Below are positions 2,109-40,228 of a stretch of DNA of 46,279 nucleotides, in pieces. A model generated the notes under the pieces. It searched no databases, had not been told where the DNA came from, and was given only the letters and a program-made list of their open reading frames with translations. Position numbers and translations under genes: made by a program. Within the stretch, counting starts at the first letter, position 1; each line of letters opens with the position of its first letter. This DNA comes from Bacilli bacterium (lineage in GTDB: Bacteria; Bacillota_I; Bacilli_A; RF39; UBA660), in contig JAEENX010000023.1 of NCBI GenBank assembly GCA_016283935.1, positions 1 to 46,279 of the forward strand, given 5' to 3'.

Positions 2109-2185
2109 GGGCGTTTAGCTCAGTTGGTTAGAGCATCTGCCTTACAAGCAGAGGGTCATAGGTTCGAGTCCTATAACGCCCACCA
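2109..2185 (+). tRNA. tRNA-Val (UAC)
   Basis: Cloverleaf with acceptor GGGCGTT paired to AACGCCC, anticodon loop CTTACAA (anticodon TAC), T-arm GGTTCGAGTCC, discriminator A, and CCA encoded in the gene. First of five tRNAs in one transcription unit. Confidence 0.97.
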
Positions 2186-2193
2186 TTTTTGAT

Positions 2194-2269
2194 GCCGACA
2201 TAGCGTAATTGGTAGCGCAACTGACTTGTAATCAGTAGGTTGGGGGTTCGATTCCCTCTGTCGGCACCA
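2194..2269 (+). tRNA. tRNA-Thr (UGU)
   Basis: Acceptor GCCGACA paired to TGTCGGC, anticodon loop CTTGTAA (TGT), encoded CCA. It follows tRNA-Val after 8 nt. Confidence 0.97.
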
Positions 2270-2276
2270 TTTTTAT

Positions 2277-2360
2277 GGAGGGATAGCGAAGTGGTCAAAC
2301 GCGGCAGACTGTAAATCTGTTCCTTCGGGTTCCATAGTTCAAATCTATGTCCCTCCACCA
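2277..2360 (+). tRNA. tRNA-Tyr (GUA)
   Basis: Acceptor GGAGGGA paired to TCCCTCC, anticodon loop CTGTAAA (GTA), and a long variable arm (TTCCTTCGGGTTCC) as expected for bacterial tRNA-Tyr. CCA is encoded. Confidence 0.97.
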
Positions 2361-2365
2361 CTTAT

Positions 2366-2441
2366 TGTCTCGTAGCCAAGTGGTAAGGCATCAGACTTTG
2401 ACTCTGACATTCCGATGGTTCGAATCCATCCGAGACAACCA
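2366..2441 (+). tRNA. tRNA-Gln (UUG)
   Basis: Acceptor TGTCTCG paired to CGAGACA, anticodon loop CTTTGAC (TTG), encoded CCA. Confidence 0.97.
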
Positions 2442-2449
2442 TTATTTTT

Positions 2450-2525
2450 GTTCCGCTAGCTCAGTTGGTAGAGCATCTGACTTTTAATCAGAGGGTCGAG
2501 GATTCGAATTCCTCGCGGGGCACCA
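2450..2525 (+). tRNA. tRNA-Lys (UUU)
   Basis: Anticodon loop CTTTTAA (TTT) and encoded CCA. The acceptor GTTCCGC pairs with GCGGGGC using two adjacent U-G wobbles (positions 2-71 and 3-70), which is slightly unusual but still closes the stem. Confidence 0.95.
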
Positions 2526-2535
2526 TTTTGAATAT

Positions 2536-2563
2536 AACCTGCTTTTAGCAGGTTTTATTTTGT
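2536..2563 (+). terminator. Terminator of the tRNA operon
   Basis: Stem AACCTGC / GCAGGTT (2536-2542 with 2548-2554), loop TTTTA, then TTATTTT. Confidence 0.85.
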
Positions 2564-2576
2564 CTAAAAATATTAA

Positions 2577-2607
2577 TAATAAAAGGAACTATTCAAATAG
2601 TTCCTTT
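2577..2607 (-). terminator. Terminator of the 2589-3017 gene
   Basis: Perfect arms AAAGGAACTAT (2582-2592) and ATAGTTCCTTT (2597-2607). Read on the minus strand they are followed by TTTTATTATT. The hairpin contains the stop codon of the gene. Confidence 0.75.
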
Positions 2608-3017
2608 ATATATTTTATTTTTTTATCAGATATTACAATACATAAATTGTCTTTATCATCATAAAAGTTTTTTTCTAATTTGTTTATTAATTTACCTTCA
2701 TTAGCAATTCTTTGCTTTGGAAGATCAAATTCTTGATATTTACCACTGGTAAAATTTATTCCTACTTTAATAATATTATTTTTTTCTTCTATATTTTTTA
2801 TAATATTGTTTATTGATTTATTATCATTTTTAATTATTTTTATCATAAAGAAATTTGCAAATAGAGAATTCATATCACCAACTAAGTTATAATTGATTTC
2901 ATCTCCGTCATTATTGATATTTGCGATGTAAAAATGATTAAAATCATCAGATGAAACAGAATATGTTTCTTTGTTGTTTGTTATTAAATCTATGTTGTAT
3001 ATACATCCTGCATTCAT
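2589..3017 (-). CDS. Hypothetical acidic protein, 142 aa
   Basis: Not recognised. No signal peptide or membrane segment is visible. The sequence is rich in Asn, Asp, Lys and Ile and looks alpha/beta, ending in DNLCIVISDKKIKYIKELFE. The start is supported by a purine-rich GGTAGGAAA just upstream and by a good minus-strand promoter at 3038-3066. It is a single-gene transcription unit with its own promoter and terminator, set between tRNA genes. Confidence 0.7.
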   Translation of the reverse strand: MNAGCIYNIDLITNNKETYSVSSDDFNHFYIANINNDGDEINYNLVGDMNSLFANFFMIKIIKNDNKSINNIIKNIEEKNNIIKVGINFTSGKYQEFDLPKQRIANEGKLINKLEKNFYDDKDNLCIVISDKKIKYIKELFE

Positions 3018-3037
3018 TTTCCTACCACCCTAAGAAA

Positions 3038-3066
3038 ATTATATCAAATTAATTAAACATTGTTAA
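3038..3066 (-). promoter_or_regulatory. Promoter of the 2589-3017 gene
   Basis: On the minus strand: -35 TTAACA (3061-3066), 17-bp spacer, -10 TATAAT (3038-3043). Confidence 0.65.
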
Positions 3067-3103
3067 CAATAAATTTACATATATAAATTTCTTTTTATGA
3101 TTC

Positions 3104-3131
3104 TTGCATTTTAATAATAATATGATATAAT
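3104..3131 (+). promoter_or_regulatory. Promoter of tRNA-Arg
   Basis: -35 TTGCAT (3104-3109), 16-bp spacer, -10 TATAAT (3126-3131). The -35 hexamer is the same as that of the five-tRNA operon. Confidence 0.7.
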
Positions 3132-3150
3132 GTAATACGTACTTGTTAAT

Positions 3151-3227
3151 GCGTTCATAGCTCAACTGGATAGAGCGTTGGTCTACGGAACCAAAGGTTG
3201 AGGGTTCGACTCCCCCTGGACGCACCA
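3151..3227 (+). tRNA. tRNA-Arg (ACG)
   Basis: Acceptor GCGTTCA paired to TGGACGC, anticodon loop CTACGGA (ACG, expected to be edited to ICG), T-arm GGGTTCGACTCCC, encoded CCA. Confidence 0.97.
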
Positions 3228-3294
3228 TTTTTTGTATAAATTGTATAATTTATACTAGCATTTATAATTATTTGTGTTATAATTATTAAGAACT

Positions 3295-3371
3295 CGAGAA
3301 GTAGCACAGCTTGGTAGTGCACCTGGTTTGGGACCAGGGGGTCGCAGGTTCGAATCCTGTCTTCTCGACCA
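3295..3371 (+). tRNA. tRNA-Pro (UGG)
   Basis: Acceptor CGAGAAG paired to CTTCTCG, anticodon loop TTTGGGA (TGG), discriminator A, encoded CCA. A -10 TATAAT at 3278-3283 gives it its own promoter, and a perfect 9-bp inverted repeat (3234-3255) separates it from tRNA-Arg. Its ACCA end is complementary to the TGGT bulge of the proS T-box at 8031-8034, so it is the likely ligand of that leader. Confidence 0.97.
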
Positions 3372-22082: not shown

Positions 22083-23450
22083 TTTTGAATAATTATTTGA
22101 AATAATTTGTGATAATTGATCTTCGTTATATAAATTATCGCTTATATCATATTGTATATTTTTTGATTTTAATATTGCTTTTAATTCTGCATTAACAGCA
22201 TTAACATTAACAATAACACCTTTATCATTATTAGCAATTATTGTGTCTATATATCTTTGATAAACATCTAATATTTCTTCATAAGAACTAGATTGATTTA
22301 TTAAATTGTTAAAATAAATATGTGCAAATGTTGTATCAATATTACTATAATTTTGATTATTGTATTCTTCATAAATATATTCAGTTCCTGAACCACTTAA
22401 ATCATAAATCAAATCCATAGATGAATAGTTTTGATATGTTGAAAAATCTATTTCGTTATTGATAGCTTCTTCATATTCTTTTATACTACCATTTATGTAA
22501 TCTTCGAATGAATAATCTGTAGAATCAATTAAAGTTTTAGAATAATTATTAACAACTCTATAAGGTAATTCTATTGGATCCATTCCATAAATTGTATCAA
22601 CAAATAAGGAATCCATTCCTTCTTCAACCATAAATCCATAGTTGCCTGATGTTGAAAAATCTCTTATAGCGGTATATCCTTTATAGTTAAAATATAAGTT
22701 ATTCATCATATGTCCAATTTCATGAGGCCTAACAACACTTAGAAGAGCTTCATCTTTTTCTCTATTAATATAAATAGTGTGTTGATCAGGTACAAATACA
22801 CCTTTTGCTTCGCCACCAGTTATTCCGATCATATCACCAGCACTTACATAATCTACTTTTAATTCTTTTATGTTCATATAAAAAGGTCTTAAATCTAAAT
22901 TCATGTTAGCTTTTTGTAAGTTATCAACAAATTCATTTAAATAAATTTTAAAATTGTCATCTATATTTTGATTTTCTGCTATAGCAGAATATAATTGCTC
23001 ATAAGTAGGATTTTGTTTATATTCACTTGGTAAAAAGTTTGTTAAAGCATCAGCGGAAGAAATATAGATTTTTTTACTTGATTCATCAATTGAATAATTT
23101 TCTTCATATATAAATTCATGTGCATCAAACAAATTATGAGGCATTACTATATTTGTAGTTGCACTAACACTTTGACAACCAGTTAAAGTTAAAGTTACAG
23201 CAATTAAAGCTCCACCAACTGATACTAACATTTTAGGTACAAAATTAAATTTTTGTCCTTTTTTTGTTTTGTCTGGAAAGTATACTATTTTCTTATTATA
23301 AAGATTATCTAGTTTCATATATGTTTCATAATCTAAATAAGAGTATTCGTTTCCATTTCTTTCTAAAAATGTATTTCTAAAATTTTTATCTCTAAAAATT
23401 GCAATTTTTCTATTATTAATAGTAATTTCACTAACTAGTATAAAATCCAT
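22080..23450 (-). CDS. Membrane-anchored zincin metalloprotease
   Basis: 456 aa. Residues 1-72 form a small cytosolic domain. A hydrophobic segment (74-91) ends in LTGC (Cys92), which looks like a lipobox although it is internal. The long extracellular part has the zinc motif HEIGH (243-247, in RPHEIGHMMN) with E276/E277 in FMVEEGMDSLF as the probable third ligand. GGTGATATT precedes the ATG. A -10 TATAAT lies 15 nt before the ATG, giving a very short leader. It is divergent from the large WFYGP protein gene, so it may process or release surface or T7SS-exported proteins (inference). Confidence 0.8.
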   Translation of the reverse strand: MDFILVSEITINNRKIAIFRDKNFRNTFLERNGNEYSYLDYETYMKLDNLYNKKIVYFPDKTKKGQKFNFVPKMLVSVGGALIAVTLTLTGCQSVSATTNIVMPHNLFDAHEFIYEENYSIDESSKKIYISSADALTNFLPSEYKQNPTYEQLYSAIAENQNIDDNFKIYLNEFVDNLQKANMNLDLRPFYMNIKELKVDYVSAGDMIGITGGEAKGVFVPDQHTIYINREKDEALLSVVRPHEIGHMMNNLYFNYKGYTAIRDFSTSGNYGFMVEEGMDSLFVDTIYGMDPIELPYRVVNNYSKTLIDSTDYSFEDYINGSIKEYEEAINNEIDFSTYQNYSSMDLIYDLSGSGTEYIYEEYNNQNYSNIDTTFAHIYFNNLINQSSSYEEILDVYQRYIDTIIANNDKGVIVNVNAVNAELKAILKSKNIQYDISDNLYNEDQLSQIISNNYSK

Positions 23451-29839: not shown

Positions 29840-32800
29840 ATGAGAAGTAAAAATGGTTATACATTAACTGAAATCTTAGTTGTAGTATTATTACTTTCTA
29901 TTGTAGGTGGAATAATTATCTTTAATGTTAATTCTATTTTAAATAATAATAAAACTAAATCATATGAAAAATATATTGCTCAAGTAAAATCTTCAGCTGA
30001 AACATATGCATCATTAAACATGGATGCAGTAAATGATTTATATGAAAACAAATCATTTACTTATATAACAGTAGGAGATTTAATTGATCATGGTTTCCTA
30101 GATGAAAAATTAACTAATCCATATACTGGAGAAAAAATATCAAGAAATGAATTAGTTAAATTAAGCTTATCTAGTGAAACAGGAAATTTAACAATAATGT
30201 ATCCTGTTGAAGAATCAAATAAAGAAGTATTCTTAAGTTCAGTAGTCATGACTGCTAATGCTAGTGCTCAAGTTGATTGTATGGATGGAATTGGAACTTA
30301 TACATTAGCTTTATCTGATGAAACAGGTAAATTAATATTAGATAAAAACACTTTATTAAATGATTATAAATTTAGTTGTAAATTACCAGATAATTTTGAT
30401 AAGACTACAGGTACTATGAGTAATGAAATTGGTTCAACTGATCAAGTTGGAACATATGAAATGACATATAGTTGGATATCAAAATCTGGTATAAAAGGAA
30501 CTGGGAAAAGATTCTTAAAGGTTGTACCTGATACTATTAAACTTACATACAATGTTGATGTAATTGAAGGAAGACCAGTTGATGCTTGGACACCTGCAAC
30601 ATGTATGGGTACAATTTCACCTGAAGGAGTATGTTCTAAAGATATTTTAGTCGGATATAATTACAATAATTTATCTAGACCTACAAGAACAGGATATATT
30701 TTTAAAGGATGGTTTACTGAAAAACAAACTGATGCAGAAAATCCTGGAAATGGAACTGAAATAACTGATACTACAAAAGTATTAAATAAGAGTAGTCATA
30801 CAATATATGCTCATTGGGAAAGAAGAAAATCAAATGTTATTTTAGATTCTACATTAAATGGAAGACCTGCAGTTGAAACAGGTAGTCAATCAGTAACTGC
30901 TAAATATAATTTACCATTAGATAGTATTACAATACCTAGAAGATATTATGATGTTGTATTTAATTTAAATGATGCATCTGAAGGAAAAGGAACAACATAT
31001 GCTACATCAACAAGTTCTTCATTAGTTGCTACATGGGATTTTGAAGGATACTTTGATGATGAAAATAAAAAATATATTAGTTCTACAGGTGAAGGTATAA
31101 CTCCATGGGATAAAATAGAAGATACAATATTACATGCGAAATGGACAAATGGAAAAATAACATTACCTGATGCTTCAAGAACAGGATATATATTCAATGG
31201 ATGGTTTACTGGTAAAAACAATGGTGAACAAAGAAACAATGATTACCAATATGAATTACCTGCAACATTATATGCTCATTGGACAGCTAAAATTTATACA
31301 GTTACATTAGATTATAATGATAATGATGGTGGTTCTACAAAAGCAAATGAATCAATTAGTACTGTTGAAGTAGTATTTGATGATGATTTCACTAGTTTAT
31401 TTAATCCAACAAGAAGTGGTTATACATTTGAAGGTTGGTATTATGAAGATACATTAATTACTAGAGCAACAAGAGCAACAAATGATTATGCCATAGCTGA
31501 TAACAACGGAATAACATTAAAAGCTAAATGGTCAAAAAATAACTATACAGTTACATTAAATAAAAATAAACAATTAGATATGACTAATGAACCTACATTA
31601 CCTGGATCTAGTACGTTACAAGTTACATTTGATGAACCTAATAATAATATTGTTCAAGTTCCAAGTGTAACAGGTTGGACATTCCAAGGATGGTATACAT
31701 CAGCAAATGTTAAAGTTTATAACGTAGATGGTACATATAATTCTGATATTACTACATACTTTGATTCAGATGGTGAATGGATTTATACAAACGATTTAAC
31801 TTTATATGCACATTGGACTCAAGATAAATACACATTAACATTGAACTTAAATCCAAATGATAAAATGACATATGAAACTTCATTAGTAGATTCTTCAAAA
31901 TTTGTATATGAAATGACATTTGATTCTACTGAAAATAATCAAATGCCAAAAGCAACTGTAATAGGATGGAATTTTAAAGGTTGGTATGATGAAGAAAACA
32001 ATATGGTATATGATCAAGATGGAGTATATGTTGAATCATCAACAACAGATTATTTCACTCGTGGTAAATGGACACATGAAGGAAATGTAGCAGTATATGC
32101 AAAATGGGAACAACAAACTTACTCAGTTACATTAGATTTAAATGACAATGATTTATATGATAAACCAACTTTATCAGTGTCTACTTATATATTTATATTT
32201 GATGATGAAATAACTGAAAATATAAATGTTCCATCATATTTGGATGGATATGAATTCTTAGGTTGGTATGAAAATGATAAATTAGTATTTAATGTAGATG
32301 GTTCATTAAATGCTGATGCAACAGATTATTTCTTAAATAATAAATGGATAAAAAATGAATCAGTAGAATTAAGAGCAAAGTGGAAAGCAAATGGATATGT
32401 TGTTACATTTAAACAACCACTTGCTACTAAAAAAGGAACTGAAACAATATTTGTAAATTACAATAGTGCTTTACCAAGTATTACAATTCCAGAAAGAAAA
32501 TATTCAGTTACTTATAATGTAAATGATGAAGAAGGTTCAACAAGATCTACAAGGGTAAATAATGAAACTATTGAATGGGATTTTGATGGATATTTCACTG
32601 AAAGAAATAATCAATATTACAATGGATCAGGTGAAACATCAATCATATACCGTGAAGCTAGCGATATAGACTTATATGAAAAATGGTCAGGTGGAACAAT
32701 AACAAATATTCCTGAACCAACAAGAGTAGGTTATACATTTGGAGGATGGTACTTAGAAGATACATTTGATACTAAAGTAGAAAATGGATATGAAGTAACA

Positions 32801-35014
32801 TCTGATGTAGAATTATATGCTAAATGGACTGCTAACAAATATACAATTACATTTAACAATAATAAAGCTTCTATAGAAGGAACAACATCTTTAGAAGTTA
32901 CATTTGATTCGGATGTTGAAAGTATATCTATACCCGAAAAGAAATTTACTATTACATTAGATAAGAATTATGAAGTAGAGAATAGAATAGAAACTAAAAC
33001 AGCTGAATGGACATTTAAAGGATACTATACTCAAATGAATGGAGTAGGTACAAGATACTTTGATGCTGAAGGAAATGCTTCTTCAAAATATCTATTAAGT
33101 GAAGACTTAACATTATATGCATATTATACAGGTGGAACTATTGAGCTTCCTGAATACACAAGAGAAGATTATATTTTCAATGGTTGGTATAATGCATCTG
33201 TTAAAGCAGAAGAAACAGATACATATGAAGAAAATACTACATTAGTAATTCATTGGAATTCAGAAGAATATAATTTAACATTAAATGTTAATAGACCAGT
33301 TAATATGAGTACTATTCCATCAATAGCTAATGATTCATATATCATGGCAATGCATACAACAGATAATAATGTTATAAATGTTCCAACTGAAATACCTGGT
33401 TGGATATTTAAAGGTTGGTATGATGGAGATACTCTAGTATTCAATGAAAATGGTGAATACCAAACAAGTGCAGAATCATTCTTTGATTCAGAAGGAAATT
33501 GGATAAAGAAAGATAATGTTACATTATATGCACATTGGGAAGCTAAAACATATTCGTTAACATTGAATACAAATAAACCTGATTCAATGGAAGAAATTCC
33601 ATCTATATCAACAAATACTTATATATTAACTTATGATGAAATAGGTGTTGAAAGTGTTGCTATACCTGATCATGTATTTGGATATACATTTGAAGGTTAT
33701 TATTACAATGATGAAATTGTATATGATACTTCAGGATATAGAATAAACGATAATTCAGTATTTGATTCAACTGGTAAATTTATTATTGCAGATTCAATAG
33801 AATTGAAAGCTCGTTGGAGTGAATATCCAAATATACTTGAACTAGTAATTAATAAATTAGATACAATGGAAGATATTCCAAGAATAACTATTTCAAGATA
33901 TGAAATGACTAAATCTGACACAAACAATAATAGAATAAATATACCAACATCAGTAACAGGATTTAACTTCTTAGGATGGTATGATGAAGAAGATGTTCAA
34001 GTATATGATGAAAATGGTAATTATGTTGAAGGCGAATATTTTGATTCAGAAGGAAATTGGTTAAAAGATAATGGTGCTAGATTATTAACAAAATATGAAC
34101 CAGTTAAATCTTTAATTAATTTAGATATTAATAGTCCTGTAGAAGAAATACCTGATATTTCAGAAAGTGTATTTATTGCTGAATATGCAGGAACTGCACC
34201 TGAAACATTACCAATACCAAGTGAAATAGATAACTATATATTTGAAGGTTGGTATTATGAAGATACTAAAGTATATGATGAAACAGGTAATAAAGTATTA
34301 AGCGTTACTCAATTCTTTGATACTACAGGTAAATGGTTATATTTAGATAATGTAATATTTGAAGCAAAATGGACTCATAGAATATATGTTAATTTAACTA
34401 TAGAAAAAGAAGATTTGATGGATATAACTCCAGAAGTAACTAATTCAACATATGAAATGAGATTAAATAGTATTTCTAATAATACAATAGATGTACCAAC
34501 TATTCCTAAACATTATACATTCTTAGGATGGTATGATGATGAAACTCAAGTATATGATGAAACAGGTAAATATAATTCATCAGCAACATCTTACTTTAAT
34601 AGTAAAGGTGAATGGATTAGAGATGCTGATGTAACATTAAAAGCAAGATGGACTCATAGAACAGAGTTTACTCTTACATTAAGTAATTCAGGACATGAAG
34701 ATGAATTTGAAAACATTGAATATACTATGAAAATGTATTCTACTATGAATAATCATGTTCATGCTCCTTTATTTGGTGATATTGCATACTTAGGATGGTA
34801 TTATCCGACTGAAACATCAGAAGAAACAGAACCTGAACCAGTTCCAGGTTCATCTCTTATTACCGGAGGTTCTACTCTTAGTGGAATAGTAGTATTTGAT
34901 AGAAATGGAAATTGGAATCCTGATGCAACAGAATTCTTTAACGAAAATGGTGAATGGATTTATTTCGATGATGTTGAATTGTTCTTATACAAAATTCCTG
35001 GTATATCAGCTTAA
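29840..35014 (+). CDS. Giant surface protein: pilin-like N-terminus plus InlB-type B-repeats
   Basis: 1724 aa. The N-terminus GYTLTEILVVVLLLSIVGG (6-24) is a textbook type IV prepilin cleavage/methylation motif, with Gly before Tyr and Glu at +5, followed by a pilin-like stalk (to about 110) with TVGDLIDHGFLDEKLTNPYTGE. From about 230 to the end there are about 17 modules ending in G(W/Y)(F/Y), for example GYTFEGWYYEDT...LKAKW, the Listeria-Bacteroides/InlB B-repeat (Flg_new) type. No LPXTG, no GW anchor and no C-terminal membrane helix. After an uncleaved or cleaved N-terminus it would stay membrane-linked with a long extracellular rod, an adhesin-like design. No prepilin peptidase gene is in the window. 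Confidence 0.9.
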   Translation: MRSKNGYTLTEILVVVLLLSIVGGIIIFNVNSILNNNKTKSYEKYIAQVKSSAETYASLNMDAVNDLYENKSFTYITVGDLIDHGFLDEKLTNPYTGEKISRNELVKLSLSSETGNLTIMYPVEESNKEVFLSSVVMTANASAQVDCMDGIGTYTLALSDETGKLILDKNTLLNDYKFSCKLPDNFDKTTGTMSNEIGSTDQVGTYEMTYSWISKSGIKGTGKRFLKVVPDTIKLTYNVDVIEGRPVDAWTPATCMGTISPEGVCSKDILVGYNYNNLSRPTRTGYIFKGWFTEKQTDAENPGNGTEITDTTKVLNKSSHTIYAHWERRKSNVILDSTLNGRPAVETGSQSVTAKYNLPLDSITIPRRYYDVVFNLNDASEGKGTTYATSTSSSLVATWDFEGYFDDENKKYISSTGEGITPWDKIEDTILHAKWTNGKITLPDASRTGYIFNGWFTGKNNGEQRNNDYQYELPATLYAHWTAKIYTVTLDYNDNDGGSTKANESISTVEVVFDDDFTSLFNPTRSGYTFEGWYYEDTLITRATRATNDYAIADNNGITLKAKWSKNNYTVTLNKNKQLDMTNEPTLPGSSTLQVTFDEPNNNIVQVPSVTGWTFQGWYTSANVKVYNVDGTYNSDITTYFDSDGEWIYTNDLTLYAHWTQDKYTLTLNLNPNDKMTYETSLVDSSKFVYEMTFDSTENNQMPKATVIGWNFKGWYDEENNMVYDQDGVYVESSTTDYFTRGKWTHEGNVAVYAKWEQQTYSVTLDLNDNDLYDKPTLSVSTYIFIFDDEITENINVPSYLDGYEFLGWYENDKLVFNVDGSLNADATDYFLNNKWIKNESVELRAKWKANGYVVTFKQPLATKKGTETIFVNYNSALPSITIPERKYSVTYNVNDEEGSTRSTRVNNETIEWDFDGYFTERNNQYYNGSGETSIIYREASDIDLYEKWSGGTITNIPEPTRVGYTFGGWYLEDTFDTKVENGYEVTSDVELYAKWTANKYTITFNNNKASIEGTTSLEVTFDSDVESISIPEKKFTITLDKNYEVENRIETKTAEWTFKGYYTQMNGVGTRYFDAEGNASSKYLLSEDLTLYAYYTGGTIELPEYTREDYIFNGWYNASVKAEETDTYEENTTLVIHWNSEEYNLTLNVNRPVNMSTIPSIANDSYIMAMHTTDNNVINVPTEIPGWIFKGWYDGDTLVFNENGEYQTSAESFFDSEGNWIKKDNVTLYAHWEAKTYSLTLNTNKPDSMEEIPSISTNTYILTYDEIGVESVAIPDHVFGYTFEGYYYNDEIVYDTSGYRINDNSVFDSTGKFIIADSIELKARWSEYPNILELVINKLDTMEDIPRITISRYEMTKSDTNNNRINIPTSVTGFNFLGWYDEEDVQVYDENGNYVEGEYFDSEGNWLKDNGARLLTKYEPVKSLINLDINSPVEEIPDISESVFIAEYAGTAPETLPIPSEIDNYIFEGWYYEDTKVYDETGNKVLSVTQFFDTTGKWLYLDNVIFEAKWTHRIYVNLTIEKEDLMDITPEVTNSTYEMRLNSISNNTIDVPTIPKHYTFLGWYDDETQVYDETGKYNSSATSYFNSKGEWIRDADVTLKARWTHRTEFTLTLSNSGHEDEFENIEYTMKMYSTMNNHVHAPLFGDIAYLGWYYPTETSEETEPEPVPGSSLITGGSTLSGIVVFDRNGNWNPDATEFFNENGEWIYFDDVELFLYKIPGISA

Positions 35015-35097: not shown

Positions 35098-36927
35098 ATG
35101 TGCGGAATAACTGGTTTTATTTCAAAACAAAAAGAATCTGAAAAAGAAAAAGTTATAAAAAAGATGGCTGATAGAATTAAACATAGAGGACCAGATGGAG
35201 AAGGTTACTATGTTGATTCTTATATTGCATTAGGTCATAGAAGACTTTCTATTATAGATATAAAAGGTGGATCTCAACCAATGTATTCTACTGATAAAAA
35301 ATTAGTAGTTATATTCAATGGTGAAATTTACAACTATAAAGAACTTAAGGAAGAATTAAAAGATTATAAATTCAAATCTAAATCAGACACTGAAGTATTA
35401 TTAGCAGGTTATAAGAAGTGGGGTAAAAATTTACCTAAACATTTAAGAGGTATGTTTGCTTTTGCAATATATGATATTGATAATCATGAAGTATTTATGG
35501 CAAGAGACCACTTTGGAATTAAGCCTTTATATTATTATCAAAATAATGGTACATTCATGTTTGCATCTGAAATTAAATCTTTCTTAGAACATCCTGATTT
35601 TGATAAAGTATTAAATGAAGATATCATTCCTGGATATATGACATTCTCATTTACTCCAACAACAGAAACTTTCTTTAAAGGAGTAAAGAGATTAGATGCT
35701 GGATGCTCATTAACTTATAAAGATGATCATATTGAAATTGAAAGATACTATAAATTAGATTTTGAAATACATAAAGAAAACTATGATGATACTGTAACTA
35801 AGATAGAAGATGCTATGAAAGATTCTGTAGAACATCATATGATTGCAGATGTTGAAGTAGGTTCTTTCTTATCTGGTGGAGTAGATTCAAACTATTTAGT
35901 TACACTTGCTCATCCTGATAAGACATATACAGTAGGATATCAAGAAGAAAGATATTCTGAAATTGATAACGCTAAAGATTTAGCTAATAAATTAGGAATT
36001 AAAAATGTAGCTCACAAAATAACAAAAGATGAATATTTTAAAGCAATTGATAAAGTATTATATCATATGGATGAACCAACATCAGATCCTGCAATTGTAT
36101 CTTTATATTTTGTATCTCAATTAGCAGCTAAAGATGTAAAAGTAGTATTATCTGGAGAAGGATCAGATGAATTCTTTGGTGGATATAATACTTACTTAGA
36201 TGGTAATAATAAAGCATCAAGATTGTATAATAAAATACCATATTTCTTAAGACATGGATTAGCAAGTGCTTTAAAACATACTGGACCATTTAGAGGAAGA
36301 AATTTCTTAGTAAGAAGAGGATTACCTCTTGAAGATTATTATGTTGGTATTAATAGAGTATTTGATGATTCTGAAATAAAAAAATATTTCAAAATGCCTG
36401 TTAAATTAACTAATAAAGAAATTACATCATCTGTATATGATGATTATAAAGGAGAACCTGATTTAGTTAAGATGCAAGCAATTGATATTAACTATTGGTT
36501 AGTAAAAGATATTCTACATAAAGGCGATAGAATGACAATGGCAAACTCATTAGAATCAAGAGTTCCATTTACAGATAGATGTGTATTCTCAATAGCATCT
36601 ACTTTACCACTAGAATATAAAGTTACACCTCAAGCAACAAAAGTGGCTTTAAGAGATGCAGCTAAAAAGGTTATACCAAATGATGCATATAGTAGAAAGA
36701 AATTAGGTTTCCCAGTTCCAGTTAGAGATTGGATGAGAGATGATGATGTTTATAATGACATTAAGTCTGAATTTGAAAAGCCTATAGCTAATAAATATTT
36801 TAATACTAAAAAACTTATTAAATTATTAGATGATCATAAAGCTAGAAAACATGATAACTATAGAAAAGTATGGAACATTTATATCTTCTTAAAATGGTAT
36901 GATAGATTCTTTGTAAAAGAAAATTAA
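35098..36927 (+). CDS. asnB: Asparagine synthetase B, glutamine-hydrolysing
   Basis: 609 aa. Makes asparagine from aspartate, ATP and glutamine-derived ammonia. N-terminal Ntn glutaminase domain with nucleophile Cys2 (MCGITGFI), KHRGPDGEGYY, GHRRLSIID and FNGEIYNY. The synthetase domain holds the PP-loop SGGVDS (259-264), SGEGSDEFFGGY, and SLESRVPFTD. GGGTGATATT precedes the ATG, and since Cys2 must follow Met1 the start is certain. Single-gene unit with a possible operator upstream and a terminator downstream. Confidence 0.95.
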   Translation: MCGITGFISKQKESEKEKVIKKMADRIKHRGPDGEGYYVDSYIALGHRRLSIIDIKGGSQPMYSTDKKLVVIFNGEIYNYKELKEELKDYKFKSKSDTEVLLAGYKKWGKNLPKHLRGMFAFAIYDIDNHEVFMARDHFGIKPLYYYQNNGTFMFASEIKSFLEHPDFDKVLNEDIIPGYMTFSFTPTTETFFKGVKRLDAGCSLTYKDDHIEIERYYKLDFEIHKENYDDTVTKIEDAMKDSVEHHMIADVEVGSFLSGGVDSNYLVTLAHPDKTYTVGYQEERYSEIDNAKDLANKLGIKNVAHKITKDEYFKAIDKVLYHMDEPTSDPAIVSLYFVSQLAAKDVKVVLSGEGSDEFFGGYNTYLDGNNKASRLYNKIPYFLRHGLASALKHTGPFRGRNFLVRRGLPLEDYYVGINRVFDDSEIKKYFKMPVKLTNKEITSSVYDDYKGEPDLVKMQAIDINYWLVKDILHKGDRMTMANSLESRVPFTDRCVFSIASTLPLEYKVTPQATKVALRDAAKKVIPNDAYSRKKLGFPVPVRDWMRDDDVYNDIKSEFEKPIANKYFNTKKLIKLLDDHKARKHDNYRKVWNIYIFLKWYDRFFVKEN

Positions 36928-36956: not shown

Positions 36957-36985
36957 TTGACTTATTATATATATGTTGGTACAAT
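36957..36985 (+). promoter_or_regulatory. Promoter of the orphan structured RNA
   Basis: -35 TTGACT (36957-36962), 17-bp spacer, -10 TACAAT (36980-36985). It begins right after the asnB terminator. Confidence 0.75.
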
Positions 36986-36991
36986 ATAATT

Positions 36992-37447
36992 GCTTAGTAT
37001 AGAATTGTAGCCAAGCTATTTATTATTTGAAGACTTCTATTTTTTAGAACTCTTCATGATTTTGTACTTTATTTGTCAAAAGTACAAGTTTTATTAGAAA
37101 TAAGCTTACTTTAAGTAAGAAATTTCACAAATTGTAGATTTAACAAGAACTACATTTAATTGGCTTCTATATTTAGAAGATGATTCAATATTATTTTAAG
37201 CAGACTTGTTATCTAGCTTATATATTATTGAACGTTTCCTAAAAAATTCGTGAATATTAAGTTTGTGTATTATGGGTATATATTTTATTCTTTTATGCAA
37301 TCTTGATTATAGCCGCGACTAAGTGAACACGTGTGACGAGAAAGAAAACTCATAAAGGTTATAAGGTTATTGTGCTGACTGATAATCAACATAAAAGCCT
37401 ATTCTAAAACTCTAAGAGACGATAGTTTATCAGGCTATCGTCTTTTT
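36992..37447 (+). ncRNA. Orphan structured RNA, about 455 nt, unassigned
   Basis: There is no ORF between asnB and the next gene, yet the stretch has a good promoter, a strong terminator and dense pairing. The ends can pair: CTTAG and TAGAAT (36993-37005) with ATTCTA and CTAAG (37401-37416). Hairpins inside: GAAGA-C-TTCTA / TAGAA-C-TCTTC (37029-37055), TTGTACTTT / AAAGTACAA (37062-37087), CTTACTT / AAGTAAG, TGTAG / CTACA, CTTCTA / TAGAAG, and a larger arm TTCAATA...AAGCAGA / TCTAGCTT...TATTGAA (about 37184-37231). The next gene has its own promoter, so this is not a simple leader. RNase P, tmRNA, SRP and 6S landmarks are absent. Confidence 0.65.
37417..37447 (+). terminator. Terminator of the structured RNA
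   Basis: AGACGATAG / CTATCGTCT with loop TTTATCAGG, then T's. Strong for this genome. Confidence 0.9.
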
Positions 37448-37507: not shown

Positions 37508-38674
37508 ATGAAAATGAATTTAAAAAATTCTATAGGTTTGAGTATTACTTTCATATTAATAATTATTGTATGCATTGGCTTCATAGCTAATTCTTTATCA
37601 AGTTATGATTCAGGTACTAAAAAATACTTTAGCAGTACTAATACAGTATTAGAAAATGAATTATCTAATCTTTTAAATAAACAATCAGACTGTGATAAAA
37701 GAATCGAAAATGAAATTGCTAAAATAAAAGAATATAACATTGATAATCCATTAATAATAAAAAATCCATATAAAATTAATCCACTAAGTGCTTTAATGAT
37801 CTTCTATACAGAAGAAGAATTAGAAGTAGATGTATATATAAATGATAGTTTTATGTCCACAGTAGGAGCTACTACTAATCATGTTATACCAATTTATGGT
37901 TTAGAAAATAATAGAGATAATATTGTTAGATTAGATTTCAGTGATGGTAGTACAAGATCATTTGCTATCAAAACTGAATTATATAACGATTATACTGAAG
38001 AATATGATTTAAAGAATTCAATGGATGGTTCTCAATTTATATTTGTAGTAGGTGATAGAAATAATATTGAATCTAAATTAAGAGGATTTGATCAAAAAGG
38101 AAGTTTAACATTCTACTATGATTTAGATTATATTTCAGGAGTTACTTTTAAGAATAATTCAATATTTGTTGGATATAACTCAAAATATACAAAAAATAAT
38201 GATATTCCTGAATTAAAACTAGAATTAGATTATTTAGGTAAGATTTTATCTATATCAACTAATTTATCTGAATTAGAAACAATATCTAATGTTAATTTAG
38301 CTAACATTGATTATATTGCTATTAATCATAATGTATATCAAGACTTTGTTGATAACTATACTATTAGTGCTGTTGTTGATAATAATCCAACTACTGAAAC
38401 TGGAGTATCATCAATTGATGAATTAGCATTAATGCTTGAACAAGCTGTTGATTTTACTAATCCATATGTATTATCTATAAATGGAAGATACTTAACATAT
38501 GACTTTAAAGGAAACCAAGATGTATTATTATTACTTATTAATAGAAAAGGTAATGTTTATACTTATAAAGTAGATGAAACTAATGTAATTAAATTACCAG
38601 ATAATAATGAATTTTCTATATATGCTAAACTTGGAAATAAGTATTATTCATTAAATACAACAATAAGTAAGTAA
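37508..38674 (+). CDS. Membrane-anchored protein with arylsulfotransferase N-terminal-like domain
   Basis: 388 aa from the ATG at 37508 (SD AGGAAGTGG; a GTG at 37499 lies within the SD). One N-terminal membrane anchor (about 9-31), then a coiled linker, then NPYKINPLSALMIFYTEEELEVDVYIND...HVIPIYGLENNRDNIVRL (about 78-145), which resembles the N-terminal beta domain of aryl-sulfate sulfotransferases. The large catalytic propeller that should follow is missing or strongly reduced (only about 200 more residues). It is probably an extracellular binding or scaffold protein rather than an active enzyme (inference). Confidence 0.7.
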   Translation: MKMNLKNSIGLSITFILIIIVCIGFIANSLSSYDSGTKKYFSSTNTVLENELSNLLNKQSDCDKRIENEIAKIKEYNIDNPLIIKNPYKINPLSALMIFYTEEELEVDVYINDSFMSTVGATTNHVIPIYGLENNRDNIVRLDFSDGSTRSFAIKTELYNDYTEEYDLKNSMDGSQFIFVVGDRNNIESKLRGFDQKGSLTFYYDLDYISGVTFKNNSIFVGYNSKYTKNNDIPELKLELDYLGKILSISTNLSELETISNVNLANIDYIAINHNVYQDFVDNYTISAVVDNNPTTETGVSSIDELALMLEQAVDFTNPYVLSINGRYLTYDFKGNQDVLLLLINRKGNVYTYKVDETNVIKLPDNNEFSIYAKLGNKYYSLNTTISK

Positions 38675-38699: not shown

Positions 38700-38754
38700 A
38701 TTGAATATATTACATAATAAGAGTAATATATTTACAAATAAGGTTGGTGGAATT

Positions 38755-39783
38755 ATGGCTAATGTAGGATACAGCGCACCTAATGATAAGATTGCTATTA
38801 TATGTACAAGAGTTGATAATGGAAATAATACGTATACTATTATTCCTCAATCAACATCATTTGGTATGGAAGAAAATGATATGTTTTACCCAGAAAACAA
38901 TACAACTCCATTACATAGTATTGAAAATTACGAAAGTATTAATAATCCAGATATTAAAGAATTTTATTTTTTTGCAAGAAATGTTGATGATTTAAGAGCT
39001 ATATATAATACTGATAAAGAAGATATGTTACCAGTTTTATATTTTTCAGATGTTAAAGAAAGAGTAATACTTGCATTAAATTATGATGGATATGTACAAG
39101 TAGTATCAGATAGATTAGATAATTTTATGGGAGATTTATTTGTAGAACATAAGGAAGCAGTTAAAGAAGCTGATACACATTCTCAAACATCAAGTAAATC
39201 ATATCCAAGTGTAATAACTAAACCACATGAAAAAGTAGATTTAGCAAATATAGATAATTTCGAAATGGAAAACTATTTAAAAGAAAGAATTTTTGAAAAT
39301 GATGATAATATTGAAGATATAGTAACTTCAATTGCAAGAAACTATAAAGCAACAAATCCTAAACTTATAAAATCAATGTTATCTATTGGACCAACAGGAT
39401 CAGGTAAATCAGAAACATATAAATTAATAGCTGAATATTTAGGAGTTCCATTTACAGAATATGATTGTAATCAATTAACATCTGCAGGATATGTTGGAAA
39501 AGATATAGAAGATGTTATGAGAAGAATATATAACAATTCAAATGGTGACATTGCTAAGGCTGAAAAATCGATTATTGTTATAGATGAATTTGATAAGATA
39601 GCGAAACGTGGAAGCGATGTTAAAGAAGATAAAGTTCAACAAGCATTTTTAAAATTCTTTGAAGGAAGTACATATGATGTAAGTTTTGGAACTTCTGGTA
39701 GTAAAACAATAAAGATGAATACATCATTTATGACTAAGGTTGCATGTGGAGCATATCCTGAACTTTTTGAACAAAAAAAATAA
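38755..39783 (+). CDS. ClpX-like AAA+ ATPase, N-terminal part up to a frameshift
   Basis: From the ATG at 38755 (SD GGTTGGTGG). Residues 1-150 are an unrecognised domain replacing the usual ClpX zinc finger. The AAA+ core has Walker A GPTGSGKSE (about 223), the ClpX-like DCNQLTSAGYVGKDIEDVMRR, Walker B IIVIDEFDKIAK and the EGSTYDV...INT-like region. The frame stops at 39783 right after CAA AAA AAA TAA, whereas the next frame continues the same protein (NKVIGFESPD). Deleting one A from the run of eight (39773-39780) restores a 490-residue protein. It may be a homopolymer error, a true mutation, or transcript slippage. Confidence 0.8.
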   Translation: MANVGYSAPNDKIAIICTRVDNGNNTYTIIPQSTSFGMEENDMFYPENNTTPLHSIENYESINNPDIKEFYFFARNVDDLRAIYNTDKEDMLPVLYFSDVKERVILALNYDGYVQVVSDRLDNFMGDLFVEHKEAVKEADTHSQTSSKSYPSVITKPHEKVDLANIDNFEMENYLKERIFENDDNIEDIVTSIARNYKATNPKLIKSMLSIGPTGSGKSETYKLIAEYLGVPFTEYDCNQLTSAGYVGKDIEDVMRRIYNNSNGDIAKAEKSIIVIDEFDKIAKRGSDVKEDKVQQAFLKFFEGSTYDVSFGTSGSKTIKMNTSFMTKVACGAYPELFEQKK

Positions 39784-40228
39784 AGTGATTGGATTTGAAT
39801 CACCAGATTCAACAATTCAAGAGGAACAAAAAAAGATAACTACAAAAGATATTATCGATTATGGCTTCATAGCAGAATTAATTGGTAGATTAAATGGTGG
39901 TTTATTCGTATATAAAGAATTATCATCTGATATCATGAGAAAAATATTAGTAGATAGTAAAAACAGTCAATTATTATTAACTAAAATATTATATGATGAA
40001 TTATATAATGCTGAACTTACATGGGATCCTAGTTATTTAGATGCTGTTATAGCAGAAGCTTATAAGAAAAAAACTGGTGGAAGAGGTTTAATGGAAGTAG
40101 TTAATGAATCAGTTGTTAAATGTGATAGAGAATTAATTCATTTATGTGCAACTGAAGGAACTAAACGAAGAGTATTAAAACTTACAGGTAATACAGTATA
40201 TGATCATAAAGACTTTACAATATTGTAA
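39773..40228 (+). CDS. ClpX-like AAA+ ATPase, C-terminal part after the frameshift
   Basis: This frame is +1 relative to the first part and carries the rest of the ATPase: VIGFESPD, DIIDYGFIAELIGRL (typical after the ClpX Walker B region), and the sensor-2 helix KTGGRGLMEVVNESV (about 40 residues before the end). An ATG at 39740 in this frame only encodes out-of-frame residues and has no SD, so it is probably not a start. Substrate unfolding is the family role; no protease gene is next to it. Confidence 0.75.
   Translation, partial: KKNKVIGFESPDSTIQEEQKKITTKDIIDYGFIAELIGRLNGGLFVYKELSSDIMRKILVDSKNSQLLLTKILYDELYNAELTWDPSYLDAVIAEAYKKKTGGRGLMEVVNESVVKCDRELIHLCATEGTKRRVLKLTGNTVYDHKDFTIL

Follow-up and report, generated by a model that had tools for sequence, protein, structure and literature searches.

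An evolving palindrome in a structured noncoding RNA of Bacilli points to RNA dimerisation, with a two-RNA form in sister lineages

What kind of RNA is encoded in the noncoding gap that separates asnB (35098-36927) from the gene after it (start at ~37508) on a 46,279-nt contig of a Bacilli bacterium, and does it act alone, on its neighbours or together with a second RNA molecule? We analysed this contig at its full length (hereafter the window) and compared the RNA element in the gap with its relatives in other genomes. The comparison makes it probable that the locus encodes a stand-alone, trans-acting structural RNA which most likely functions as a homodimer, and that sister lineages carry the RNA as a heterodimer of two molecules, A and B.

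Judged from its sequence, the element is expected to be a stand-alone structured noncoding RNA gene of ~455 nt, extending from ~36990 to 37447 (Table 1). The first-pass annotation of the window had described it as an orphan RNA with its own promoter, a strong terminator and no ORF. Promoter and terminator are both present, and the position of the promoter is conserved among relatives. No ORF of 40 aa or more was found inside the element, the sole contact being a 49-aa minus-strand ORF that touches its end. Promoter-type sites as such occur about as often as shuffling predicts (22 observed, 21.7 expected). A promoter-like site with 9 or more of its 12 bases matching directly precedes P1 in 96% of 89 class-1 elements, whereas the rate at random positions is 31%; the P1 candidate was picked by its best promoter, and the control was given an equal number of tries. 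The terminator-like hairpin at the element's end comprises 15 pairs, and the fold of the element beats that of every shuffled sequence (z = -4.2; -3.7 without the terminator). The proposed gene boundaries are supported by sequence comparison, as are P1, P2, the hairpins, the symmetry of the palindrome and the complementarity between A and B described below.

Table 1. Window coordinates of the features assigned to the RNA gene.
Feature	Position	Strand	Sequence and pairing	Basis
Sigma-70-type promoter	36957-36985	+	TTGACT-17-TACAAT, TG before -10	sequence; position conserved in relatives
P1, 5' strand	36990-36998	+	UUGCUUAGU; pairs with 37318-37326; at or near the predicted RNA 5' end	
Variable 5' domain	36999-37306	+		MFE folds
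Predicted 5'-domain hairpins	~37028-37056, 37061-37088 (10 bp), 37097-37126, 37133-37154, and two longer arms			MFE
RF03040 (PGK RNA)-like stretch	37301-37392	+		36.0 bits, E 0.011, below cut-off 50.8
P2, 5' strand	37307-37314	+	UUAUAGCC; pairs with 37357-37364	covariation
P1, 3' strand	37318-37326	+	ACUAAGUGA; inside P2	
Self-complementary segment, proposed dimer contact	37327-37334	+	ACACGUGU	
GAG hairpin	37338-37351	+	GAG-AAAGAAAA-CUC; conserved A-rich loop	covariation
P2, 3' strand	37357-37364	+	GGUUAUAA	covariation
CUGAUAA hairpin	37370-37394	+	conserved loop CUGAUAA (37379-37385)	stem and loop covariation
Conserved AAAACUC	37406-37412	+	unpaired	
Intrinsic terminator hairpin	37414-37446	+	loop segment UUAUCAG (37427-37433), complementary to 37379-37385	

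Together, P1 and P2 are predicted to form a pseudoknot, since the 3' strand of P1 falls inside P2. The two ends of the RNA had originally been proposed to pair with each other (36993-37005 with 37401-37416), but this pairing does not appear in the MFE fold and is not conserved among relatives; the conserved and predicted partner of the 5' end is instead the 3' strand of P1, and P1 also appears in the MFE fold of the window RNA. Across 136 elements, P1 strands taken from one and the same element pair with a score of 8.69, above the 7.08 that was the highest value reached by permutation; these are best-of-many scores, with permutation as the sole control. The strands change together from element to element (UACUUAG/CUAAGUA, GUAUUUUGA/UCAAAAUAC, AUCUCGG/CCGAGAU), and in one genome of the genus they are swapped, ACUAAGU being found with ACUUAGU. 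At least six internal hairpins had initially been counted, two of them perfectly paired over 9-11 bp; several are predicted in the fold, including one of 10 bp. When the 145 MFE pairs were compared with a sister species, 134 were unchanged, four had changed on one side, four were compensatory and three were broken; among more distant relatives, the 5' domain varies in both length and sequence.

The 3' core can be aligned more widely. In 50 aligned class-1 cores, 95.0% of the cells are paired for P2, the GAG hairpin, the CUGAUAA hairpin and the palindromic pairing, and the covariation score is 0.463, with slid partners reaching at most 0.090. Doubly changed cells number 124 in this alignment against 24.6 in shuffles (0/500), and 154 against 52.4 (0/500) in an alignment of 21 short-P4 elements that includes the window's genus, figures that treat kin sequences as independent and so indicate strength and not probabilities. 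Compensatory changes were thus seen in P1, P2, the hairpins and the MFE pairs of the sister species, in line with the structured RNA first proposed.

The element is not an orphan, as it had been called: a paralogue is present in its own genome, many related genomes have homologues, and the 3' third of the RNA is a divergent relative of RF03040 that scores below the cut-off. At gathering cut-offs no Rfam family is matched in the element, and RF03040 came out as the best match in a relaxed scan of all 4227 families with E up to 10. The same scan returned SpR08, sraA, ceN61, rli45, RefA9 and SQ2397, all far under their cut-offs and judged to be chance. A relative found by blastn in another genus (genome G161, loci L007/L058) passes the RF03040 cut-off with 56.2 bits. 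Most short blastn matches in the family were AT-rich chance similarities; L003 and L007 were retained after alignment, and the window RNA can be aligned with both over the whole gene, from promoter through terminator. The RF03040 model, of 92 nt, has P2, the GAG hairpin and the CUGAUAA hairpin in common with the 3' core of the window RNA, and is without P1, the 5' domain, the terminator hairpin and the palindromic pairing. Around RF03040 matches in other genomes we find a promoter, a 5' strand of the CUUAG type, variable sequence, the core, AAACUCG and a terminator loop UUUAUCAGR. By this comparison, RF03040 appears to be a fragment, namely the middle, of a larger stand-alone RNA gene. No mention of RF03040 was found in the literature searched.

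Other well-known RNAs had been set aside in the first-pass annotation, and this judgement stands. The RNase P RNA and the tmRNA of the genome (G000) lie elsewhere, on C26 (RF00011, 271.7 bits, over the cut-off) and C10 (RF00023, 128.9 bits), respectively; the sole RF00023 match on C20 (13.8 bits, 22181-22246) is outside the element, and RF00011 is not matched in the element. For SRP RNA and 6S RNA, no match was seen in the window at gathering cut-offs, and none in the element when E was relaxed to 10. The assignment to the class of large ornate bacterial RNAs fits in spirit, and the covariance models of OLE, ROOL and GOLLD gave no match in the element in the relaxed scan.

Two features that had escaped notice at first bear on how the RNA might work. 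The first is a palindrome placed between the 3' strand of P1 and the GAG hairpin, which measures 8 nt in the window RNA and 8-16 nt among the elements. Its versions in relatives include CAAUUG, GAUAUAUC, UGAUCA, GUAUAC, CAUAUG, UACGUA and UGUACA, along with UUCGAA and others centred on GCGC, CUAG or AGCU, and 93 of 96 elements have a central tetramer that is palindromic by Watson-Crick pairing, ten different tetramers being represented. With G-U pairs allowed, the mean half-arm of 79 class-1 elements is 6.23, compared with 2.63 in dinucleotide shuffles, and 6.19 compared with 2.69 in the 26 elements that remain without the common CAATTG type; for the tetramers and the half-arms alike, palindrome centres were taken as the best of nine offsets, a choice that the shuffles for the half-arms were given too. 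The class-2 A elements described below provide a natural control, with a half-arm of 3.00 against 2.64 (n = 37). Within its own element, the palindrome has no intramolecular partner beyond chance (5.54, compared with 5.39 for shuffled 8-mers), and its innermost pairs, which involve adjacent bases, cannot form in one strand. A symmetry that is kept while the sequence changes would be hard to explain within one molecule.

The second feature is the 7-nt match between the loop CUGAUAA and the terminator-loop segment UUAUCAG. Both loops are nearly fixed among the elements. A U-A pair is replaced by C-G on both sides together in six of 21 aligned elements (CUGACA/UGUCAG); L057 and the second copy in the window's genome are two of the six. 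For class 1, such pairing may be within one molecule or between two.

Class 2 places the same parts on two RNAs. Its elements, found by a pattern search, have neither the palindrome nor the terminator loop, and they often follow rplL, with an L10 leader upstream. Before or after such an element (A) stands another RNA (B), which has a promoter to itself, is laid out in the same way and carries the loop UUUAUCAG in its 3' hairpin. The loops are divided between the two, CUGAUAA on A and UUAUCAG on B, and the place of the palindrome is taken by complementary segments, for instance UGUAAUU in A and AAUUACA in B. A and B are found in either order and on opposite strands, and they must therefore be separate transcripts. 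In 20 pairs, the complementarity of A with its own B scores 10.52, against 8.08 for mismatched partners (0/20,000 permutations); 13 further pairs obtained with a model of B give 10.96 against 7.46 (0/20,000 permutations). These match scores are best-of-many, with the permutation as sole control, and the 33 pairs include some redundancy: the second set overlaps the first (the segments of L274 and L281 equal those of L125 and L064, and L273 equals L121), and L091, L095 and L149 are near-identical. Changes occur in step, with AAUAUUAUA/UAUAAUAUU in one case against AAUAUUGUA/UACAAUAUU in another, and AUGUAAUUUG/CAAAUUACAU against AUGCAAUUUGA/UCAAAUUGCAU. With 37.2 bits (E 1.6e-4), the window RNA is itself recognised by the B model, and the two classes are therefore related. 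The B RNAs (alignment A3) have more conserved stretches, such as AAUGA and UUAGCGGGUAGAG.

From these comparisons we infer that the palindrome and the loops of the window RNA pair between molecules. The 5' end of the RNA would pair back to the 3' strand of P1, enclosing the variable 5' domain, and the interlocked P1/P2 pseudoknot core would display the self-complementary segment and the two mutually complementary hairpin loops. ACACGUGU would then pair with the identical segment of a second copy, giving a homodimer with two further, probable kissing contacts, each between the CUGAUAA loop of one copy and the terminator loop UUAUCAG of its partner. In the sister lineages, the pairing segments and loops of the paralogous genes A and B would be the complementary halves of a heterodimer. 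Such a complex would presumably need no protein, and the RNA would serve as a scaffold or RNP core, not as a regulator of neighbouring genes.

The RNA might instead remain a monomer whose two loops kiss each other in an intramolecular tertiary contact, with the palindrome serving as a short hairpin or spacer. Both loops are indeed in the same RNA in class 1, and many of the palindromes could form a hairpin of 3-6 bp around a four-base loop. Such a hairpin needs no palindromic loop, yet the central tetramer is almost always palindromic, and in class 2 the loops are on different RNAs and the segments of A and B covary. We consider a monomer unlikely, and favour pairing between copies.

All 11 genomes of the genus carry the RNA, mostly as two paralogues. 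The diverged second copy in the window's genome (G000:C4:104337-104492, minus strand) has the palindrome GUUCGAAC and the loops CUGACA/UGUCAG. Where two or three copies can be read in a genome, their palindromes differ and their loop codes mostly differ, as read off without statistics. Differing palindromes are as expected if paralogues avoid cross-pairing. Two more divergent elements of the genus, L261 and L268, have another loop pair and palindrome and are possibly a third paralogue type. We hold it rather more plausible than otherwise that the RNA forms homodimers through an evolving palindrome and reciprocal loops with paralogue-specific codes, and that duplication turned this arrangement into an obligate heterodimer in the sister class. 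Across wider groups, R1 matches at least 40 of 291 family genomes and at least 67 of 365 in the order, R2 at least 10 of 296 in the class, all from the same family, and R3 at least 10 of 291 family genomes; the large searches were strictly filtered, hence these counts are lower bounds. Family genomes that have no match may reflect loss, divergence beyond the models or a patchy distribution. The named records with an element are gut MAGs labelled Bacilli, Erysipelotrichaceae, Tenericutes or similar. A search of a phage collection gave no match. Pattern matches in Actinobacteria, Ignavibacteria, Lachnospiraceae, Veillonella, Ruminococcus and Snodgrassella were dropped as chance, and four in viral contigs, which have neither the palindrome nor a nearby terminator loop, were likewise considered chance.

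The genes that follow the RNA differ between lineages and encode an arylsulfotransferase-domain protein, pyruvate formate lyase, PGK, HU, rubrerythrin or NlpC/P60 proteins, and the RNA therefore probably acts in trans. RF03040 is typed Cis-reg, while the neighbours of the window-type RNA vary; this label is doubtful, because PGK lies downstream in one clade only and unrelated genes are found elsewhere. The window RNA is not upstream of phosphoglycerate kinase, having asparagine synthase upstream and an Arylsulfotran_N protein downstream. That the RNA is a leader or attenuator of its downstream gene, as the Rfam type implies, is in our view very improbable. This reading could draw on the annotation itself, on PGK following in that one clade (L123), on the terminator at the end of the element and on the window orthologues L241 and L215, which precede a similar downstream gene. 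Against it stand the diversity of downstream genes, from PGK to HU, rubrerythrin and NlpC/P60, a separate promoter-like site (TTTACA-17-TATAAT) between the window's terminator and its downstream gene, and the two separate transcription units that make up class 2 after rplL.

Even less credible, to the point of being nearly negligible, is a palindrome that is a DNA element (a binding or integration site) lying by chance in a transcribed region: palindromes often mark protein-binding sites, but a fixed DNA-binding protein would not allow at least ten sequence versions with symmetry kept, the symmetry is lost in class 2 and replaced by complementarity between two loci, and no phage record matched.

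As for the neighbours themselves, the protein encoded downstream of the window RNA (37508-38674) has a membrane segment at its N terminus as well as an Arylsulfotran_N domain, and the orthologous RNA in G043 (L241) precedes the gene of a similar protein. The gene downstream of the second paralogue often encodes a secreted protein (L251, L266, L257, L258, L252): in G000 it is an NlpC/P60 protein, and elsewhere a short secreted protein, for which the one example checked had no Pfam match.

Pairing between two copies of one RNA through a palindromic segment is familiar from dimer initiation sites of the HIV type. The palindrome pairing is alike, whereas those sites serve the dimerisation of viral genomes and are unrelated in sequence and context. 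Another comparison is offered by OLE, ROOL and GOLLD, large noncoding bacterial RNAs that assemble with themselves; palindrome switching in the loops of OLE and GOLLD, and the covariation of kissing loops, were taken as evidence of intermolecular pairing (PMC12286853). The evidence for the window RNA family, palindrome switching and loop covariation, is of the same kind. The window RNA is smaller and has another architecture, and its oligomerisation is deduced from sequence where theirs was seen. A two-RNA form of the A and B kind was not found in the passages of PMC12286853 consulted, and the word heterodimer is absent from the paper; searching the literature for comparable RNA heterodimers gave nothing either.

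RNA-only complexes have come to light only recently, and their assembly may or may not matter in the cell. The present family offers unusually direct comparative evidence of intermolecular pairing, in the form of a palindrome that stays symmetric and of two genes that change together. If dimerisation is true, these RNAs would provide small, defined systems for the study of RNA assembly, of paralogue specificity and of the change from homomeric to heteromeric complexes, and RF03040 would be a fragment of a larger trans-acting RNA and not a PGK leader.

Elsewhere in the window, seven tRNA genes are clustered at 2109-3368, and a repetitive protein of 1724 aa with a pilin-like N-terminal sequence is encoded at 29840-35014. 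A ClpX-like AAA ATPase at 38701-40228 is read in two frames that overlap, 38701-39783 and 39740-40228; eight consecutive A lie at ~39774-39781, and the split would be a frameshift, either programmed or an assembly error.
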